DNA from: Natranaerobius thermophilus JW/NM-WN-LF
GTDB taxonomy: Bacteria > Bacillota > Natranaerobiia > Natranaerobiales > Natranaerobiaceae
Reading direction: 5' to 3'
Assembly: GCF_000020005.1 (NCBI RefSeq)
Contig: NC_010718.1
Span: 2,500,001 to 2,564,000 of the forward strand
DNA length: 64,000 nt
Positions within the stretch are counted from its first letter, which is position 1. Each line of letters starts with the position of its first letter. The notes under the pieces were generated by a model. It searched no databases, was not told the origin of the DNA, and saw only the letters and a program-made list of their open reading frames with translations. A program made the translations under genes and the position numbers. Shown piece after piece: positions 47,994-57,206 of this stretch.

Positions 47994-48046
47994 TACGATA
48001 AACACCAGCAGAAAACCACAGCTCTAACTATGGGAATACATCAAAG
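47994..48046 (-). repeat. Copy A of an imperfect inverted repeat pair (IS200/IS605-end-like)
   Basis: On the minus strand it runs from CTTTGATGTATTCCCATAG to GTTTATCGTA. Aligned to copy B (50920-50971, plus strand) it is about three-quarters identical over 52 bp. It contains a small CCATAG/CTGTGG hairpin. Its first bases form the last codon and stop of the ABC permease gene. Confidence 0.5.
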
Positions 48047-49450
48047 CTCACGCTTTAGGGCTTCTAATACATTAATTCTAGTAGCTTTTACCGCTGGTTT
48101 CATCCCGGAGACAACAGCTACAAAAAAACACAATGAAAAACCCGTTATCACAAGAACAGGTGCCACGTAGGACAGTTGCACAATATCGGGTAATTCCGTC
48201 TCAAAAGTATTCTCCAGTAAATAAGGGAGTAAAGCATTGATTCCAGTACTAGCAATCAGGGCGATGGCAATACCTAAAAACGCCCCTATTACTCCTATAT
48301 AGATACTTTCCAAAAGAAAAATCTTACGTACAGTTCCAGGATGAGTGCCAATGGCCTTCATTATGCCAATTTCATGGGACCTTTCAGATACTGCCATGGA
48401 CATGGTATTATAAATTCCTAAAGATGCAATTACGATTCCAATAAGTCCCACAAATATCATGGCAATATGTAAAAATTGAAAATAGAAAGCTACATTATCA
48501 ATAATATCAACTACGGCAAAGGCTCTAAACCCTTCTTCTTCCAGTTGGTCTGAGACATGTTCTACTCGCTCTACTTCGTGGGCAAAAACATTAACCCCTT
48601 CATACAGACCGCCACTTCCCGGGGCCATTTCCATCATCTGATCAAATTCATCGCCCACTTCCTGGCCAGTTAGTTCCAAAAGAACTTCCATGGAACCTCC
48701 CAAAAACTGCATTATTGTATCAATCAGTTCGGGAGACACAACTTGACCCATAGGGGTACCTGTAAAATCTTGTATTTCATCTAAAATACCTTTTGGTAAG
48801 TAAATACTGTAATTAGTGCTGAAGGGATTGTTAGGAGGGCCAAATTCCATGCCTGCCATTTCCGAAGAATCAAATATTCCTACGACCTCTAAATTAAAAT
48901 TTTCCTCCACCTGAGCATCACCCACACCACGGCGAATGATCATATCAATTTCACGGCCCAAAAGCTCCTGGGCCTCTGTTTCTAGATCAGACAACTGGGC
49001 GAACTTCCGATCTAATACCACTTCCTGATCATTTTCAGGAATCCTCCCCCGATATAGTTCACGGCCGGCCTTTATTTCAGAAGCAAAATCTACAATTCCC
49101 ACAGACAAGTCTGTTCTGTGAGAATTTATCTCAAACTTGGGGAGTTGACCCAGGCGGGCACTGCGGGTGACAACCTTCACGTCTTCCATTGCTTCGATCT
49201 CTTGGATATGCTCTCTGTTGAGTTCTGTATTATCCCCTGTTACACCATAAACTGCAATTTGATTTAATTCAGACTGGGCGAGTAATCCCTGAATCACAGT
49301 TTTTTGAATACCAAAACCAAAGGAAGCTAGAAGAATTAAATACCCACAGGCAATGGCGACAGCTATGATAGTCATGACAGTTCTTGATTTATTATTTTTG
49401 AGATTTCTGTAGACCAGATTGTTCATATCCCTAAAAGTCACGGTCATCAT
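48041..49450 (-). CDS. MacB/FtsX-type ABC transporter permease
   Basis: Protein of 469 residues. One N-terminal helix (about 24-45: SRTVMTIIAVAIACGYLIL), a large extracytoplasmic domain (about 60-330) and three C-terminal helices (about 335-360, 385-410, 430-455). VSERSHEIGIMKAIGTHPGT is the FtsX-family coupling motif. It works with the ATPase encoded immediately upstream (20-bp overlap), probably for export or release of a lipoprotein, peptide or lipid. The downstream-most codons lie in an inverted repeat, so its C-terminus may have been altered by an insertion. Confidence 0.9.
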   Translation of the reverse strand: MMTVTFRDMNNLVYRNLKNNKSRTVMTIIAVAIACGYLILLASFGFGIQKTVIQGLLAQSELNQIAVYGVTGDNTELNREHIQEIEAMEDVKVVTRSARLGQLPKFEINSHRTDLSVGIVDFASEIKAGRELYRGRIPENDQEVVLDRKFAQLSDLETEAQELLGREIDMIIRRGVGDAQVEENFNLEVVGIFDSSEMAGMEFGPPNNPFSTNYSIYLPKGILDEIQDFTGTPMGQVVSPELIDTIMQFLGGSMEVLLELTGQEVGDEFDQMMEMAPGSGGLYEGVNVFAHEVERVEHVSDQLEEEGFRAFAVVDIIDNVAFYFQFLHIAMIFVGLIGIVIASLGIYNTMSMAVSERSHEIGIMKAIGTHPGTVRKIFLLESIYIGVIGAFLGIAIALIASTGINALLPYLLENTFETELPDIVQLSYVAPVLVITGFSLCFFVAVVSGMKPAVKATRINVLEALKREL

Positions 49451-50141
49451 CCTGTTCTATAATGTGACCATCTTTCACCCGAATAATTTCATGGGACTTT
49501 TCAGCTACTTCTTTATCATGGGTGACCAAAAGGACTGTAATTCCTAGTTCATCGTTCAGCTGATAAATTAACTCCAAAAGCAGTTTCTCATTATAAGAAT
49601 CCAAACTGCCTGTGGGCTCATCAGCTAATAAAATTTCCGGATTGTTGATTAAAGCTCTGGCCACACTAGTCCGCTGCTGCTGCCCTCCCGAGAGCTGATC
49701 AGGGTAGAATTCGGTATGGCTATATAAACCCACTTTTTCCAACATTTCAAAGACCAATTCTGTACGTCGTCCTGGTGAAATGCCTTTAACCATTAAGGGC
49801 ATTTGAACGTTTTCAAAGACTGTCATGGATGAAATTAGCTGATAGCTTTGGAAAACAAAGCCCAAATTATTTAATCTAAACTTGGCCCATTCATTTTCAT
49901 TGAAGCCCGTGACATCTTTGTCATTTAATACAATCCTACCTGTTCTGGGTTTGAGATAACCTGATAAAAGATTAAGGAGAGTAGATTTACCCGAGCCACT
50001 TTTACCCATAATAGCAGCTATTTTCCCCTGTTCTATTTCGAAGTTGATATTATTGAGGACTGTAAAACCAGTATTATTCCCAACAGGAAAGGTATGGCTT
50101 AAATCTGAAACTTGTATCACATCCCGATCCCCCTGATTCAT
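49431..50141 (-). CDS. ABC transporter ATP-binding protein, LolD/MacB type
   Basis: ATPase of 236 residues: Walker A MGKSGSGKSTLLNLLSG (about 45-61), Q-loop FVFQSYQLISSMTVFENV, signature LSGGQQQRTSVARAL (about 146-160), Walker B ILLADEPTGSLDS. The sequence after the Walker B is typical of the MacB/LolD/FtsE group. It is the first gene of a two-gene exporter. An exported protein gene lies 123 bp upstream on the same strand with a terminator between, so the exporter may have its own promoter in that gap. Confidence 0.94.
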   Translation of the reverse strand: MNQGDRDVIQVSDLSHTFPVGNNTGFTVLNNINFEIEQGKIAAIMGKSGSGKSTLLNLLSGYLKPRTGRIVLNDKDVTGFNENEWAKFRLNNLGFVFQSYQLISSMTVFENVQMPLMVKGISPGRRTELVFEMLEKVGLYSHTEFYPDQLSGGQQQRTSVARALINNPEILLADEPTGSLDSYNEKLLLELIYQLNDELGITVLLVTHDKEVAEKSHEIIRVKDGHIIEQDDDRDF

Positions 50142-50246
50142 AGGTGAATAATAGCTTTATATGGATTTAAAAATGTATTGGAGTTAGAATATTATTCCCT
50201 GAGGGGTCAAAAATTATTTTAATTGAACGAATTATACGGTTTTGGC

Positions 50247-50278
50247 AAAAAAAAAGCCGGAGCATTAGTTGCCCGGCT
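50247..50278 (-). terminator. Terminator after the exported protein gene
   Basis: On the minus strand AGCCGG, 12-nt loop, CCGGCT, then nine T. The first arm lies in the last codons of the gene ending at 50265. Confidence 0.85.
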
Positions 50279-50807
50279 GAATCTCGTAATCTCCTCTTAC
50301 CATTATGTACGCTTTATGCCTAATACTCATCCCCCGACCATCGTCCCTGGGAAAGAGTAAGTGATGGTTCCTAGGGATATCTTCATCTGCATCGATATCA
50401 TTACCAGCGGTCAGATCAGCTATTCCTCCTTGAGGAGAAGTAATAGCATTACCACGGCCAGCTCTCAGGATCATTTCCGTACCATCCCCAGCCATGATAG
50501 TGTCTCCTGCTTCAACTTGCACCACTTCAAACTTATCTAAATTGCCCTGAGGCATGTCCAAGTCTTCCAGGTCGTTTAGTTGAGCTAGCTGATCTTGTAA
50601 CTTTTTATCAACCTCTTCTAGTAATTCATCTTGCAAGTCGTATTTTAACTCATCTTTTAATACTTCTTCCACATAACTCTCGGTTACTAGAGGGTCATCC
50701 TTAGAGCCAGGCTCCGAGACATTGACCGCGCCAGCCCACACAGCTTGTCCCAAAAGTAAAGCTCCTAATACAGTAACAGTAATTATTAAGGCAAGTTTTT
50801 TTGACAT
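50265..50807 (-). CDS. Conserved exported protein of unknown function
   Basis: Protein of 180 residues with a clear signal peptide (hydrophobic 5-22, cleavage near AVWAGA). Then SKDDPLVTESYVEEVL, a short charged coiled-coil stretch (about 45-80) and a compact C-terminal part (about 90-175): QVEAGDTIMAGDGTEMILRA, then DLTAGNDIDADEDIPRNHHL and FPRDDGRGMSI. I recognise this pattern from uncharacterised exported proteins of Clostridia but know no function. ATG at 50807 follows GGAGGAG. Its neighbours are a MacB-type exporter and an oligopeptide importer; a link is not shown. Confidence 0.75.
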   Translation of the reverse strand: MSKKLALIITVTVLGALLLGQAVWAGAVNVSEPGSKDDPLVTESYVEEVLKDELKYDLQDELLEEVDKKLQDQLAQLNDLEDLDMPQGNLDKFEVVQVEAGDTIMAGDGTEMILRAGRGNAITSPQGGIADLTAGNDIDADEDIPRNHHLLFPRDDGRGMSIRHKAYIMVRGDYEIQPGN

Positions 50808-51270: not shown

Positions 51271-53022
51271 TTGAAAGGTTATTGGTGGACCTTTGTGACT
51301 GTGTTAGTCTTAAGTTTTACCTTAGTGTTTACTGGCTGTGGCCCCGATGATGCCGATCCTGCCGAAGAAGAACCAGAAGAAGCTCCTGACCCCGACAGAA
51401 AAGTTGAAGAAATTGTAATCAACACTACCACTATGGATTACGACCCGGCTAGAAATGAAGTCGCCAGGTGGGTAGGAGATACTTTTGAAACTGAACTAGG
51501 CGTTGATGTGGAAGTTCAACCTAGAGAGTTTACAACTTTAGTAGACTCAGCTCGTCGGGATCCTGGTGAATCTGAATGGCAAGCCATCACTCTAGGTTGG
51601 TCTGGGCGGATAGAGAGAGCCGACCCTGACATGTTCACTCACACCTTGTTCCATTCCGATCAAGCTTACGACGGTGGAAACAACTATCATAATTATGAAA
51701 GTGATGAATATGACGAGCTAGCAGAACAGGCCAGGATGGCCTTCGATGAAGATGAAAGACAGGAACTGGTCTATGAAATGCAAGAAAAATTAGCTGAAGA
51801 TATTCCCATGATTGTATTGTACAACGAGGCTGAACATCAAGCTCAAAACGTGGAACGCTGGGACAATGTAATACAAACTCCTGAAGGAAAATACAGTGAA
51901 TGGTTCCCCTATTACGCTGAACCATTAACTGATGATGATCATTTTAGAATCGGCTATACCCAGGATTTGGATACATTTAACCCACTAGCAGCTACCACAG
52001 TTTTTGAGTGGAAATTACTACGACTAAATTACGACAAATTGTTCCGAGTTGGCCCTGATATGGAATTGAGGCCCTGGATGGCTGAAGATCACGAGGTCGT
52101 AGACGAACAAACCATAGATGTGGAACTTCGGGACGGTTTAGAGTTTCATGACGGTGAACCTGTTACACCAAGAGACGTTAAATTTACCTTTGATTACATG
52201 ACAGACTGGGGAGTAGGTTATTTTGCCGGTTTCTTAGATCCTCTAGACGAAGTGGAACTACTTGAAGACGAAACAATTCGCTTCCACTTGGAAGAACCCA
52301 ATGCAACCTTCTTGACAAATACTTTAACCCAAATTGTCATCTTACCAAAACACATTTGGGGAGACTTAGTTGAACCAGAAGAGGATCATGTTTGGGGAGA
52401 AATGATGGATGATCCCAGTCAAAGCGAAGGATTATCCCACCCCGATGAATATGAAAATGAAGAAGCCATCGGAAGTGGACCTTATGAACTGGACTACTGG
52501 AACCGAGGTGAAGAAATCAGCCTTGTTCGCAATGAAAATTACTTTGACCATCCCGATTACTATGATGCCGATGAAATAGATGTAGAAAGGATTTCCTATA
52601 TAATTTACGGACACGAAGAAGGTGTTATGGGCGGCCTTGAACACGAAGAAATTGACCTGGTAGGAGATGCTTACATGTCCGATTACGTGGATAGAGTTGA
52701 AGAAATGGAGCATGTGGAATATTCCGGACACACATCCATCGGTTTCCACTATTTATCCTTCGATCTCAGCGAACCACCTTTTGAAGACCACGCCTTTAGA
52801 GAAGCAGCTGCCCACTTAATAGATGCCGAAGAACTACTGGATATTGTCCACGGAGGTTACGGAGAACCCGGTGGTGCAGGTAGAGTAATTTCACCATCAG
52901 TCGAGTTTTGGAGAAATCCCGATGTGCCAGAATACCCCTTTGACCCAGACCGAGCAGTAGAAATTTTAGAAGACGCAGGTTATGAATTTTACGATGGAGA
53001 TCTCTATTATCCCGAAGACTAA
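51271..53022 (+). CDS. Oligopeptide/nickel-type ABC substrate-binding lipoprotein, apparently circularly permuted
   Basis: Exported binding protein of 583 residues. It has a lipoprotein signal (VLSFTLVFTGC, Cys23) and an acidic linker. The order of family-5 segments is rearranged. Residues about 40-222 look like the usual C-terminal lobe (FETELGVDVEVQ; ITLGWSGRIERADPDMF; ESDEYDELAEQARMAFDEDE; IPMIVLYNEAE). The normal N-terminal opening appears only at about 224 (FRIGYTQDLDTFNPLAA), and the protein ends at FDPDRAVEILEDAGYEFYDG, where ordinary members continue into that C-lobe. Start is TTG at 51271 behind GGGGGG. It is very acidic. First gene of an importer operon; ligand unknown. Confidence 0.9.
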   Translation: MKGYWWTFVTVLVLSFTLVFTGCGPDDADPAEEEPEEAPDPDRKVEEIVINTTTMDYDPARNEVARWVGDTFETELGVDVEVQPREFTTLVDSARRDPGESEWQAITLGWSGRIERADPDMFTHTLFHSDQAYDGGNNYHNYESDEYDELAEQARMAFDEDERQELVYEMQEKLAEDIPMIVLYNEAEHQAQNVERWDNVIQTPEGKYSEWFPYYAEPLTDDDHFRIGYTQDLDTFNPLAATTVFEWKLLRLNYDKLFRVGPDMELRPWMAEDHEVVDEQTIDVELRDGLEFHDGEPVTPRDVKFTFDYMTDWGVGYFAGFLDPLDEVELLEDETIRFHLEEPNATFLTNTLTQIVILPKHIWGDLVEPEEDHVWGEMMDDPSQSEGLSHPDEYENEEAIGSGPYELDYWNRGEEISLVRNENYFDHPDYYDADEIDVERISYIIYGHEEGVMGGLEHEEIDLVGDAYMSDYVDRVEEMEHVEYSGHTSIGFHYLSFDLSEPPFEDHAFREAAAHLIDAEELLDIVHGGYGEPGGAGRVISPSVEFWRNPDVPEYPFDPDRAVEILEDAGYEFYDGDLYYPED

Positions 53023-53181: not shown

Positions 53182-54171
53182 ATGGTGAAAAATTTGGGCT
53201 TTAGGCGATTTGTCTTGCGTAGAATCGGTCAAGTAATCATCAGCTTATTCATTGTTGCCACCATTGTATTTTTTCTCTTTCGATTATTACCCGGTGACCC
53301 GACAGCAGCCATGATGCAGCCCGAAATGTCCTCAGAAGCCCAAGAAATGATTCGGGAAAGATTTGGTCTTGACCGCCCTCTTCATGAACAGTATTTAGCA
53401 TATATGGTTAACTTGCTTCAAGGGGACTTTGGTATATCCTTTCACTACAGACTACCCGTTAGCCAAGTTATAGGTACTTACATTCTGAACACCCTTTGGC
53501 TAATGTTTTCAGCTATTGCAGTTGCCTACATTGGAGGAGTCCTAATAGGTGGGTTAATGTCCTGGTATCGCGGATCAAGACTAGAAACTTTCTTGAGTGG
53601 TGGTGTACTATTCTGTCGGTCTTTACCACCTTTTTTCTTGGGAATGGTGGGAATAATGGTTTTTAGCTTTTATTTTGAATTACTCCCCCATTCTGGTATG
53701 AGGTCCCCTGGAGCTAATCCAGTGGGTTTTGTAGAAACTTATTTAAATTTAGACTTCCTCTATCATTTGATTCTGCCAGTAGCCATGTCGAGTTTATATT
53801 ATCTAGCTCGTCCCACTCTGATTATGAGAAATAATATGCTGGAATTGAGAGGAGCCGATTTTGTTGAACTAGCAAGAGCCAAGGGGCTCAGACAATCTCG
53901 GGTAATCTACCTTCATGCAGCCAGGAATGCAATTTTACCTGTAATAACTAATTTAGCTCTCTTCCTGGGAATGGCCATTGGAGCAGCAGTAGCCGTTGAA
54001 TACGTTTTTGGATGGCCAGGCCTCGGCCGTGAAATGGTCAGGGCTGCACAACTCAGGGATTATCCCCTAGCCCAGGCTTGTTTTCTAATGTTAGCAGCTA
54101 AAGTAATGGTACTGAATCTGTTAGTAGATATACTCTATGGCTATCTAGATCCCAGGATCACCTATGAATAA
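53182..54171 (+). CDS. Oligopeptide-type ABC permease, OppB/DppB
   Basis: Membrane protein of 329 residues with six helices. The N-terminus FVLRRIGQVIISLFIVATIV is typical of DppB/OppB, followed by FRLLPGDPTAAMM (about 35-47), ERFGLDRPLHEQYLAYMVNL and the coupling EAA-like motif ELARAKGLRQSRVIYLHAAR (about 230-249). The last loop VEYVFGWPGLGREMV precedes the final helix. ATG at 53182. It pairs with the next gene as the transmembrane channel. Confidence 0.93.
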   Translation: MVKNLGFRRFVLRRIGQVIISLFIVATIVFFLFRLLPGDPTAAMMQPEMSSEAQEMIRERFGLDRPLHEQYLAYMVNLLQGDFGISFHYRLPVSQVIGTYILNTLWLMFSAIAVAYIGGVLIGGLMSWYRGSRLETFLSGGVLFCRSLPPFFLGMVGIMVFSFYFELLPHSGMRSPGANPVGFVETYLNLDFLYHLILPVAMSSLYYLARPTLIMRNNMLELRGADFVELARAKGLRQSRVIYLHAARNAILPVITNLALFLGMAIGAAVAVEYVFGWPGLGREMVRAAQLRDYPLAQACFLMLAAKVMVLNLLVDILYGYLDPRITYE

Positions 54172-54188
54172 AGGGGGTTTCAAATTTA

Positions 54189-55109
54189 ATGAATAAAGAA
54201 ATTGAATCTCAATTACAGGAACATGATGCTCCTAGTTTTAAAAGTAAAGTATCTTCATTGGCCTATTTCATTAAAGAAATTTTCAGTCAGGACAAAATGG
54301 CCTTGATCGGGACCATTATTTTTATCCTGTTTATCATAGTCGCCCTCATGGCTCCAACTCTAGCACCCCATGACCCTATGGAAATACATCGCAGAGATGG
54401 GGAGATTGTACGGACTGAACCCCCATCTAGCGAATTTCCCTTTGGGACAACTAATAGGGGACGCTGTGTCTTTAGCCAGGTGATTATGGGAAGCAGAGTT
54501 GCCCTATTGGTAGGCGCCCTGGCAGCTCTACTAGTAACTATAATTGGCTCAAATATAGGATTGATTTCAGGTTATTATGGTGGTTGGATAGATAATCTAT
54601 TCATGAGAATCGTCGACATCAGTTATGCCATACCTTTTATCCCTTTTACAATAATCCTGGTCACATTATTAAGACCTAGTATTTGGAATATAATTTTAGC
54701 CATTGTGGTCCTTACATGGAGGACAATAGCCAGGGTTTTAAGGGCTCAAGTGTTGTCAGTAAAAGAACGTCCCTATGTGAAAGCGGCTAAAGTAGCTGGT
54801 GCAAGCAATGCCAGGATAATTTTCCTATATATTCTTCCTAATGTCCTTCCTCTGGCTTTGCTGGAAATGTCACTAAGAATGGCTCAAGCCATTGTTGCAG
54901 AATCAACGGTAAGCTTTTTGGGTTTCGGAGACCCGGATGTAATTAGCTGGGGTAGAATTTTACAGGAAGGCTTTATCGCTGGAGCTATGCGGGAAGCTTG
55001 GTGGTGGGTAATTCCACCAGGATTAGCTATTGCCATAGTAGTAGTATCGGTATTCTTTAGTTCCAGAGCCCTGGAATTTGTAGCTAATCCTCAATTAAGG
55101 AGGCGATAG
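54189..55109 (+). CDS. Oligopeptide-type ABC permease, OppC/DppC
   Basis: Membrane protein of 306 residues: N-terminal helix after a 35-residue cytoplasmic tail, APTLAPHDPMEIHRRDGEIV (about 54-73), the FGTTNRGRCVFSQVIMGSRV segment (about 85-104; DLFS-type loop altered to CVFS), EAA-like coupling loop YVKAAKVAGASNARIIFLYI and LGFGDPDVISWGRILQEG near the C-terminus. ATG at 54189 is 18 bp after the oppB stop. The CVFSQ in place of the common DxFSR is a small deviation. Confidence 0.93.
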   Translation: MNKEIESQLQEHDAPSFKSKVSSLAYFIKEIFSQDKMALIGTIIFILFIIVALMAPTLAPHDPMEIHRRDGEIVRTEPPSSEFPFGTTNRGRCVFSQVIMGSRVALLVGALAALLVTIIGSNIGLISGYYGGWIDNLFMRIVDISYAIPFIPFTIILVTLLRPSIWNIILAIVVLTWRTIARVLRAQVLSVKERPYVKAAKVAGASNARIIFLYILPNVLPLALLEMSLRMAQAIVAESTVSFLGFGDPDVISWGRILQEGFIAGAMREAWWWVIPPGLAIAIVVVSVFFSSRALEFVANPQLRRR

Positions 55110-55113
55110 TTAG

Positions 55114-56154
55114 ATGGCACTATTAGAAATTGAAAATCTGACCATCAGTTACCAGCTTAAAAATGGTGAATTACGTGCCGTCGATGACGTTTCATTTAAT
55201 ATTCCCGAGGGAAGTAACTTGGGTCTAGTCGGTGAAAGCGGTTGTGGTAAAACTACCGCAGCCAAGTCTATAGTCAATCTCCTTCCGGAAAACGGGCGAA
55301 TTGCCCAAGGAAAAATTAAATATAAGGGGACGGATCTAGCTCAATTAAATGAAAATGAAATTCGTAAATGGCGCTGGCAAGAAATCTCTCTGATTACCCA
55401 GAGTGCCATGAATGCCCTAAACCCGGTTTATCGTGTGGGAGATCAAATCGTAGAAGCTATTAGAGCCCATGAAAATATCAGTAAGAAAAATGCCAAGAAC
55501 AGAGCAGCAGAGCTCTTCGATATAGTAGGTCTAGAAAAGAAAAGGTTAGAAGCTTATCCCCATGAAATGAGTGGCGGAATGCGCCAACGCGCAATTATAG
55601 CCATGGCTCTAGCCTTGGATCCAGGTCTGATACTAGCCGACGAGCCTACAACTGCCTTGGACGTGGTAGTTCAAGATAAAATTCTCGCCAAAATAATCGA
55701 AATTCAAGCAGAGCTTAAGAGTTCTATGGTTTTTATAACCCACGATATATCTGTAGTTGCCGAAACCTGTGATTATGTATGTGTCATGTATGCAGGTAAA
55801 GTTATGGAATACGGGCCTACCAGAACTATTTTCAAAGATTCTCGTCATCCATATACCATGGGTTTAAGAAATGCATTTCCCAGTGTTAATTTGTCTCAGA
55901 TGGAACTGATTTCAATACCAGGTTATCCACCTGATCTGATGGATCCACCTACTGGCTGTAGATTTGCAGAGCGTTGCCCCTTTATGGAAAATATTTGTTT
56001 AGAACAGGACCCGGGAATCACAGCCATCACAGATGACCATTATCTCAGCTGTCACTTCCCCGAAAAATATCAACAGTTCCGAGATATAGCAAAGCACCGC
56101 AGTACCTGGGAAAAAGTTAAAGAGAGGATGATAGAAGGTGAGGTGGTATATTGA
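55114..56154 (+). CDS. Oligopeptide ABC transporter ATPase, OppD/DppD
   Basis: ATPase of 346 residues: Walker [14 protein letters not shown] (about 39-51), signature [15 protein letters not shown] (about 152-166), Walker [13 protein letters not shown]. The C-terminal oligopeptide extension has the cysteine motif [14 protein letters not shown] (about 288-301) plus a later Cys, likely an Fe-S-binding site typical of this subfamily. ATG at 55114 is 5 bp after the oppC stop; its own stop overlaps the start of the next gene. Confidence 0.94.
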
Positions 56155-57206
56155 TGAAACAAGAAGCCAAAACTGATATCAACCAATCAACTGCTGGTAG
56201 CAATGAAATACCAGCTATAGAGGTGAAAAATTTAAAAAAATATTTCCCCCTCCCTACTGGATTAATTGATACCTTATTAAAAAGAGAAAAAAAGTCTGTC
56301 AAAGCTGTAGATAACATTTCCTTTTCTTTAAAAGAAGGCGAAATCCTAGGACTTGCCGGGGAAAGCGGTTCAGGAAAAACCACTACAGGAGAGCTGATTA
56401 CTCAGCTTCAAGATCCCACGGAGGGAGACATAATCTATCAAGGTAATAGTTTACACAAATTAGGGCCCAAAGAATTGAAGGAATTCAGAAAATACTGCCA
56501 AATGATTTTCCAGGACCCCTATGAAACTTTAAACCCACGTTTTACTATTAAACGAACCATCGAAGAACCTTTACTTATAAATGGTTGGAAAAGCGACAGT
56601 GCCCGGCTTAATAAAGTCAAAGAAGCTCTTTACAGAGCTGAGCTTCGCCCTCCAGAAGCATATATGAACAGATTTCCCCATGAACTATCGGGAGGTCAGC
56701 GCCAGAGAGTAGCCATTGCTCGAGGAATCGTGTTAGATCCACGGATTCTAGTAGCCGATGAACCGGTATCCATGTTAGATGTTTCTATCAGGGCAGGGAT
56801 TTTAAATCTTCTAAAAGATTTTAGAGATGAACTGGGACTGTCCATGTTGTATATTTCCCATGACTTGTCCACCATGAAATACATTTGTGACAGGACTATG
56901 ATCATGTATCTTGGTAAAGCTGTCGAGATCGGCCCTACAGAAAAAGTTATTGATAAATCTGTTCACCCATATACCCAGGCTTTAATTTCATCAGTGCCTA
57001 TTCCCGATCCTGATATTGAACGGGAAGGCACTAAAATCAAAGGTGAGATTCCAGATCAAATCAACTTACCCCAAGGCTGTAGGTTCGTGCCCCGGTGCCC
57101 GGACTCAGAAGATCAGTGCCATGAAAGGGAACCTGAACTAGTTAAGGTAGGAGAAAACCAAGATGGAGAGGGTCATTATGCTGCCTGCATTCACGCAGAC
57201 GCCTAG
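56154..57206 (+). CDS. Oligopeptide ABC transporter ATPase, OppF/DppF
   Basis: ATPase of 350 residues: Walker A GESGSGKTTTGELI (about 73-86), FQDPYETLNPRFTI, signature LSGGQRQRVAIARGI (about 176-190), Walker B ILVADEPVSMLD. The C-terminal oligopeptide extension includes CRFVPRCPDSEDQC (about 311-324) and a last Cys. ATG at 56154 shares its first base with the TGA of the preceding gene (TGATG), so translation is coupled. Last gene of the importer operon, followed by a strong terminator. Confidence 0.94.
   Translation: MKQEAKTDINQSTAGSNEIPAIEVKNLKKYFPLPTGLIDTLLKREKKSVKAVDNISFSLKEGEILGLAGESGSGKTTTGELITQLQDPTEGDIIYQGNSLHKLGPKELKEFRKYCQMIFQDPYETLNPRFTIKRTIEEPLLINGWKSDSARLNKVKEALYRAELRPPEAYMNRFPHELSGGQRQRVAIARGIVLDPRILVADEPVSMLDVSIRAGILNLLKDFRDELGLSMLYISHDLSTMKYICDRTMIMYLGKAVEIGPTEKVIDKSVHPYTQALISSVPIPDPDIEREGTKIKGEIPDQINLPQGCRFVPRCPDSEDQCHEREPELVKVGENQDGEGHYAACIHADA

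Follow-up and report, generated by a model that had tools for sequence, protein, structure and literature searches.

The window, by which we mean the whole 64,000-nucleotide stretch of Natranaerobius thermophilus DNA analysed here, encodes a substrate-binding protein whose segments appear out of their usual order, raising the question of whether a member of family 5 has been circularly permuted in nature, as the original prediction proposed from sequence alone. We find it very likely that this protein is a family-5 (OppA/DppA/NikA) binding lipoprotein with a circularly permuted chain, which serves as the substrate-binding subunit of a five-gene Opp/Dpp-type ABC importer.

Chain order of the window protein

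The open reading frame at 51271–53022 comprises 583 codons in one uninterrupted frame. Its coordinates and frame were confirmed, and a G-rich stretch resembling a ribosome site lies just 5' of its TTG start codon. Family membership is met by the Pfam model SBP_bac_5 (PF00496), which scores 203 bits (cut-off 32.4). The match is split and reversed in order: residues 265–577 correspond to profile positions 1–284 of 368, and residues 31–133 to positions 269–367 of 368. Alignment with the structure 5u4o places residues 230–349 at 51–172, 398–572 at 197–360 and 76–181 at 389–487, and alignment with AppA (1xoc) places residues 232–578 at 31–351 and 58–192 at 370–495. A canonical profile, which we built from 23 ordinary family-5 proteins, reads the window protein as positions 359–511 followed by 44–366, each stretch once. 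The resulting features are as follows.

51271–53022, plus strand: very probably a circularly permuted family-5 substrate-binding lipoprotein, 583 aa, TTG start (sequence, Pfam, PDB, custom HMM, rotation)
51271–51339, plus strand: signal peptide with lipobox-like LVFTG-C (Cys23) (sequence; Cys conserved in close relatives as FMGC, VIGC and FIGC)
51340–51402, plus strand: acidic linker from the anchor to the new N-terminus, residues 24–44 (sequence; residues 21–34 have pLDDT < 50 in the model)
51403–51924, plus strand: residues 45–218, in ordinary members the latter half of lobe II plus the C-terminal end of lobe I, canonical profile 359–511 (Pfam, PDB, custom profile)
51883–51954, plus strand: junction of the ancestral C-terminus with the ancestral N-terminus, residues 205–228 (profile mapping; residues 202–211 of low confidence in the model)
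51940–53019, plus strand: residues 224–583, in ordinary members lobe I and the first part of lobe II, canonical profile 44–366, ending just past the DAGY helix at cut A (Pfam, PDB, custom profile)

The two matched stretches overlap by 8–16 profile positions, which are located in the flanking linker, and no segment is duplicated. When the protein is rotated to ordinary order, it gives one collinear, end-to-end alignment with 1xoc (14–517 to 33–495). The ordinary chain order, with the N-terminus in lobe I, is not met, and collinearity appears only after rotation. The window protein meets the criteria for natural permutation, namely ancestral segments present once, joined ancestral termini and new termini elsewhere. 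The order of the segments and their single copy are thus established here.

Permuted relatives in other genomes

The genome of the window (3.19 Mb, three contigs) contains a second permuted gene, 50% identical to the window protein end to end, together with at least seven ordinary family-5 paralogues. Two permuted genes also occur in the sister genome (60% and 51% identity to the window protein), again with the same order in single open frames. Because the paralogue and the sister-genome genes have the same order in single open frames, the order of the window protein is neither a chance event nor a sequencing artefact.

Scanning genome contigs with a single protein returned no relatives; an alignment-based scan returned many. 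Using a junction profile for the class that includes the window protein (A1), built from 12 permuted proteins, we found permuted open frames in about 48 of the 399 genomes of the phylum (hand count of rows). The first set comprised 82 distinct permuted open reading frames, eight of them on plasmids of Alphaproteobacteria and haloarchaea, and no repeated segment was found in any of these 82 proteins. A scan of named genomes added 27 further frames among 80 loci, with hosts in Actinomycetota, Pseudomonadota, Thermodesulfobacteriota, Bacillota, haloarchaea and a Desulfurococcaceae archaeon. This gives a total of 109 distinct permuted family-5 frames from several bacterial and archaeal phyla, establishing that the arrangement recurs. 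Ordinary family-5 proteins were recognised as ordinary in the same scans, so the method has no bias towards seeing permutation everywhere. Annotation pipelines label the permuted proteins plainly as "ABC transporter substrate-binding protein". For such members, end-to-end or coverage-based comparisons and predictions of domain borders will err.

The original prediction therefore held in its two central claims. Family-5 segments do occur in permuted order: against family-5 profiles and structures, residues ~45–222 mapped to the C-terminal portion (the last third) and residues ~224–583 to the N-terminal portion (the first two thirds). Permutation rather than duplication is supported by HMM order, rotation and same-order relatives, and by the predicted model and the common nearest relative of both parts described below. 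The reading would have been refuted by an end-to-end alignment in normal order, or by a repeat of the N-terminal part after residue 224; both were examined, and the outcomes favour permutation. The treatment of the protein as a single oddity failed, as the phenomenon is widespread and recurrent.

Two features of individual relatives were also noted. One permuted gene of class A2 (L106:5675–6817, in genome G233) carries an in-frame TAG ahead of the junction; the gene may be a pseudogene, the codon may be read through, or the sequence may contain an error. Four haloarchaeal permuted binding proteins (L160, L279, L296 and L298) have no permease or ATPase detected alongside; one of them sits in a 969-residue open frame. 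Their match to the canonical profile reaches only ~336 on the C-terminal side, and a further class is possible.

Fold, position of the cuts and membrane anchoring

AlphaFold2, supplied with an alignment of nine permuted proteins, gave a coherent model of the window protein (pLDDT 79.5, pTM 0.77), and a protein with a second cut site (cut B, see below) was modelled with pLDDT 88.9 and pTM 0.82. For both models, the best Foldseek matches were family-5 structures with partial chain coverage, Foldseek being a sequential aligner that is blind to permutation. Matches to the window model spanned ~370–400 columns with TM scores of 0.36–0.46 (normalised by query), which alone do not prove an assembled fold. 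No solved permuted family-5 protein was among the best 50 matches of either model, all of which cover only part of the chain. That the window protein adopts the three-domain, two-lobed family-5 fold in solution is thus inferred, without experiment.

Permuted proteins are opened at one of two sites. At cut A, found in the majority including the window protein, the chain ends at canonical ~364–366 and starts at ~365–390, in the loop after the "AKELLEEAGY" helix. At cut B, found in some thirty proteins, it ends at ~229–232 and starts at ~221–232, in the loop after "NPNYW". When 12-position windows along the chain of ordinary members are ranked by length variability, the one at cut A is third and the one at cut B sixth. 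Both loops thus tolerate change. We named groups by cut site and sequence class, giving A1 (with the window protein), A2, A3 and B.

Domain II of SapA comprises residues 313–531 (PMC8519434). On an E. coli-numbered SapA model, cut A falls near residue 383, well within lobe II; the numbering offset between sources is small, and the cut stays inside domain II regardless. As the cut lies inside lobe II, whole lobes are not swapped and both lobe crossings are unchanged, so that the permuted chain most probably starts and ends in lobe II while retaining the two ordinary crossings.

In the window protein, Cys23 follows a hydrophobic stretch and meets the lipobox criterion, as judged by a simple pattern only. 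It seems likely that the protein is held from lobe II through Cys23 and the acidic linker; this anchoring, including the lipidation itself, is inferred from the sequence and not from experiment. By the same simple pattern, proteins of class A3, almost all of those of class B and many A1 and A2 members carry a signal peptide or a membrane segment without a lipobox. The lipobox count in ordinary proteins is an invalid control, since the profile start removes their signal peptides. Two further claims of the original prediction can be judged here. New termini near the lobe boundary had been expected, which is wrong, as the cut lies mid lobe II, in the loop that follows the DAGY helix. The claim of tethering from a different face held in part: it is a fair inference for the window protein (LVFTG-C23) and no general feature of permuted forms.

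One could suppose that selection favoured permutation for the new tether point that it gives to a binding protein anchored in the membrane, an idea put forward for the permuted sugar-binding protein TpMglB-2 (PMC4990184). The Cys lipobox and acidic linker of the window protein and its near relatives speak for this idea. However, the lack of a lipobox in A3, nearly all of B and many A1 and A2 members indicates that a lipid tether is not the common reason for permutation, and loop tolerance accounts about equally well for the cut sites. We consider this explanation unlikely.

Number of origins and alternative explanations

For phylogenetic analysis, all permuted proteins were rotated to ordinary order and combined with 38–76 ordinary proteins. 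A1, A2, A3 and B were each supported as a group (SH-aLRT 97–100, from a quick tree and not bootstrap values), leaving aside the single protein L142 and the long-branched haloarchaeal L160. A2, A3 and L142 each lie beside different ordinary proteins, and A2 and L142 are nested among ordinary proteins. AU tests rejected a single clade for A1 and A2 (p 8e-60), A2 and L142 (p 2e-131) and A2 and A3 (p 2.7e-5), and less strongly for A1 and A3 (p 0.014). A clade of A1 and B was not rejected (p 0.67), and it is possible that these two have a common origin with a second re-cut. As the groups were named partly after the tree had been seen, the AU p-values are somewhat optimistic. A non-single origin is established here, and from the rejection of these pairwise clades we conclude that cut A was opened on no fewer than three occasions, probably four. 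The fourth origin, L142, rests on the A2/L142 test and on a starred pairing with the ordinary protein L212.

The closest comparison is between the ordinary protein L153 and the permuted A2 protein L026, which are 57.4% identical over 462 positions, with the sole break exactly at the loop; the old C-terminus of L026 joins the old N-terminus via a linker of a few residues. Such a close ordinary/permuted pair (57% identity), taken with about a hundred examples, several origins and two cut sites, makes it testable how permutations arise. It is also testable whether one loop is reused as the sole cut-tolerant site and whether the tether point matters for delivery to the transporter.

On a bolder reading, which we regard as likely, nature permuted family-5 proteins on at least three to five independent occasions, in most cases at one and the same loop of lobe II, and a single permuted line spread through several bacterial and at least two archaeal phyla. 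If true, permutation would be a recurrent and site-specific natural event in a transport protein family that ranks among the largest, and the resulting importers would have a receptor tethered through the other lobe.

Alternatively, one ancient permutation could lie behind all permuted forms, with ordinary order regained in some lines. This view can draw on the identical loop of cut A across all A classes, on the possible A1/B clade, and on the inability of tree counts to separate gain from loss. However, the rejection of one clade for A1/A2, A2/A3, A2/L142 and A1/A3, together with the nesting of A2 and L142 among ordinary proteins, makes it very unlikely.

Another alternative is a chimera, in which the C-terminal part of one binding-protein gene was fused before the N-terminal part of another. 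Binding-protein genes often occur in tandem (genome G056, for example, has three), and for the A1 protein L154 the top-ranked relative of its first part is only 55th for its second part, the parts being hard to trace at deep divergence; in some distant A1 members, divergence is too great for a choice between permutation and chimera. However, the two parts of the window protein lead to one and the same nearest ordinary relative, L003, which is encoded in the genome of the window itself (first of 76 for either part, 34.0% and 31.3% identity); this fits permutation and not a chimera. The two parts likewise share their nearest ordinary relative in the A2 proteins L026 and L057 and in L142, and the identities in the A2/L153 pair are alike in the two parts (58.3% and 54.6%). 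A chimeric origin can therefore be considered highly improbable.

Finally, a decayed or partial tandem duplication mimicking permutation (pseudogene, frameshift or assembly fusion), for which only the 8–16-position profile overlap speaks, is all but excluded by the single open frame, the same order in the paralogue and orthologues at 50–60% identity, the lack of a repeated segment in the 82-frame set, and the conservation across species of 109 distinct examples with intact operons. Circular permutation thus remains the preferred reading.

Relation to known systems

Family-5 proteins (cluster C, Venus-flytrap fold) such as OppA, AppA, DppA, NikA and SapA (PF00496) resemble the window protein in sequence family, length, secondary-structure content and an operon with two permeases and two ATPases. 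They differ in that the window protein has the C-terminal third first and its termini in lobe II instead of lobe I. The closest precedent that we found is TpMglB-2 (Tp0684) of Treponema pallidum, a naturally permuted sugar-binding lipoprotein with a type I fold, for which the authors proposed the term "Type Ic / Cluster Bc" and showed experimentally that it binds glucose and closes despite the permutation (PMC4990184). Both proteins are naturally permuted ABC binding lipoproteins. However, TpMglB-2 belongs to another fold cluster, and permutation gave it a fourth lobe crossing; the window protein keeps the usual crossings. The window protein is not of the TpMglB-2 type (Cluster Bc), as Pfam, PDB and Foldseek all place it in family 5. 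For TpMglB-2, the passages of PMC4990184 consulted do not report recurrence.

Engineered circularly permuted binding proteins in biosensors show that new termini are tolerated. These are man-made, whereas the permuted family-5 forms are natural, widespread and recurrent. We found no report of permuted family-5 proteins in the literature searched, which omits most subscription journals. Thus, the kind of rearrangement was already known; what appears to be new is its family, its scale, its recurrence and its shared cut site. Natural circular permutations are generally rare enough to merit single reports; family 5 provides about a hundred, with several origins and two cut sites.

Operon, putative ligand and proposed mechanism

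Downstream of the binding-protein gene, the window contains four importer genes.

53182–54171, plus strand: permease B, Opp/Dpp type (best NCBIfam model Opp2B, under its cut-off)
54189–55109, plus strand: permease C, Opp/Dpp type (best NCBIfam model Opp4C, under its cut-off)
55114–56154, plus strand: ATPase, OppD/DppD type (best NCBIfam model OppD, under its cut-off)
56151–57206, plus strand: ATPase, OppF/DppF type (best NCBIfam models DppF/OppF, under their cut-offs)

The criterion for an Opp/Dpp-type importer, two permeases and two ATPases with a binding protein, is thus met at 53182–57206, as it is in relatives, establishing the operon. Genes of such a dppBCDF-type set lie next to the permuted gene at 73 of 78 long loci, and the same is true of most named genomes. 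No equivalog cut-off of NCBIfam was attained, so the ligand, be it peptide or nickel, is not fixed. A small peptide or peptide-like amide is possible; both this ligand and its uptake are inferred, with slight support from genes for M20/M28 peptidase, hydantoinase and creatininase that lie nearby in relatives.

We propose, by inference and without experiment, that the permuted gene arose by tandem duplication of an ordinary binding-protein gene followed by in-frame fusion. The front of the first copy and the tail of the second would then have been lost, with the signal peptide kept. This would have joined the ancestral C-terminus to the ancestral N-terminus within lobe I through a short linker and opened new termini in the long, length-variable loop of lobe II. 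We found no intermediate that carries duplicated segments, and the tandem-duplication route remains an inference. The protein would be exported, lipidated at Cys23 and tethered by the acidic linker from lobe II rather than lobe I. Because both lobe-to-lobe crossings are kept, the hinge should function as usual, and the receptor would close on a small peptide or peptide-like ligand and deliver it to the two permeases encoded next door.

Gene arrangement varies among permuted loci. In the operon of the permuted paralogue (G000:C2:2337251–2338909; L002, L060), the binding-protein gene is last, after permB-permC-atpD-atpF, whereas it is first in the window. In Nitratireductor, a single gene of 2.3 kb (L154:10124–12427) appears to cover both ATPases of the permuted operon. 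Three loci (L119, L121 and L127) carry a tandem pair of cut-B permuted genes with one downstream permease/ATPase set in common, an arrangement from which permutation could arise. On the minus strand of the window, divergent from the binding-protein operon, positions 48041–50807 encode a MacB-like permease and ATPase pair together with a 180-residue exported protein of unknown function.
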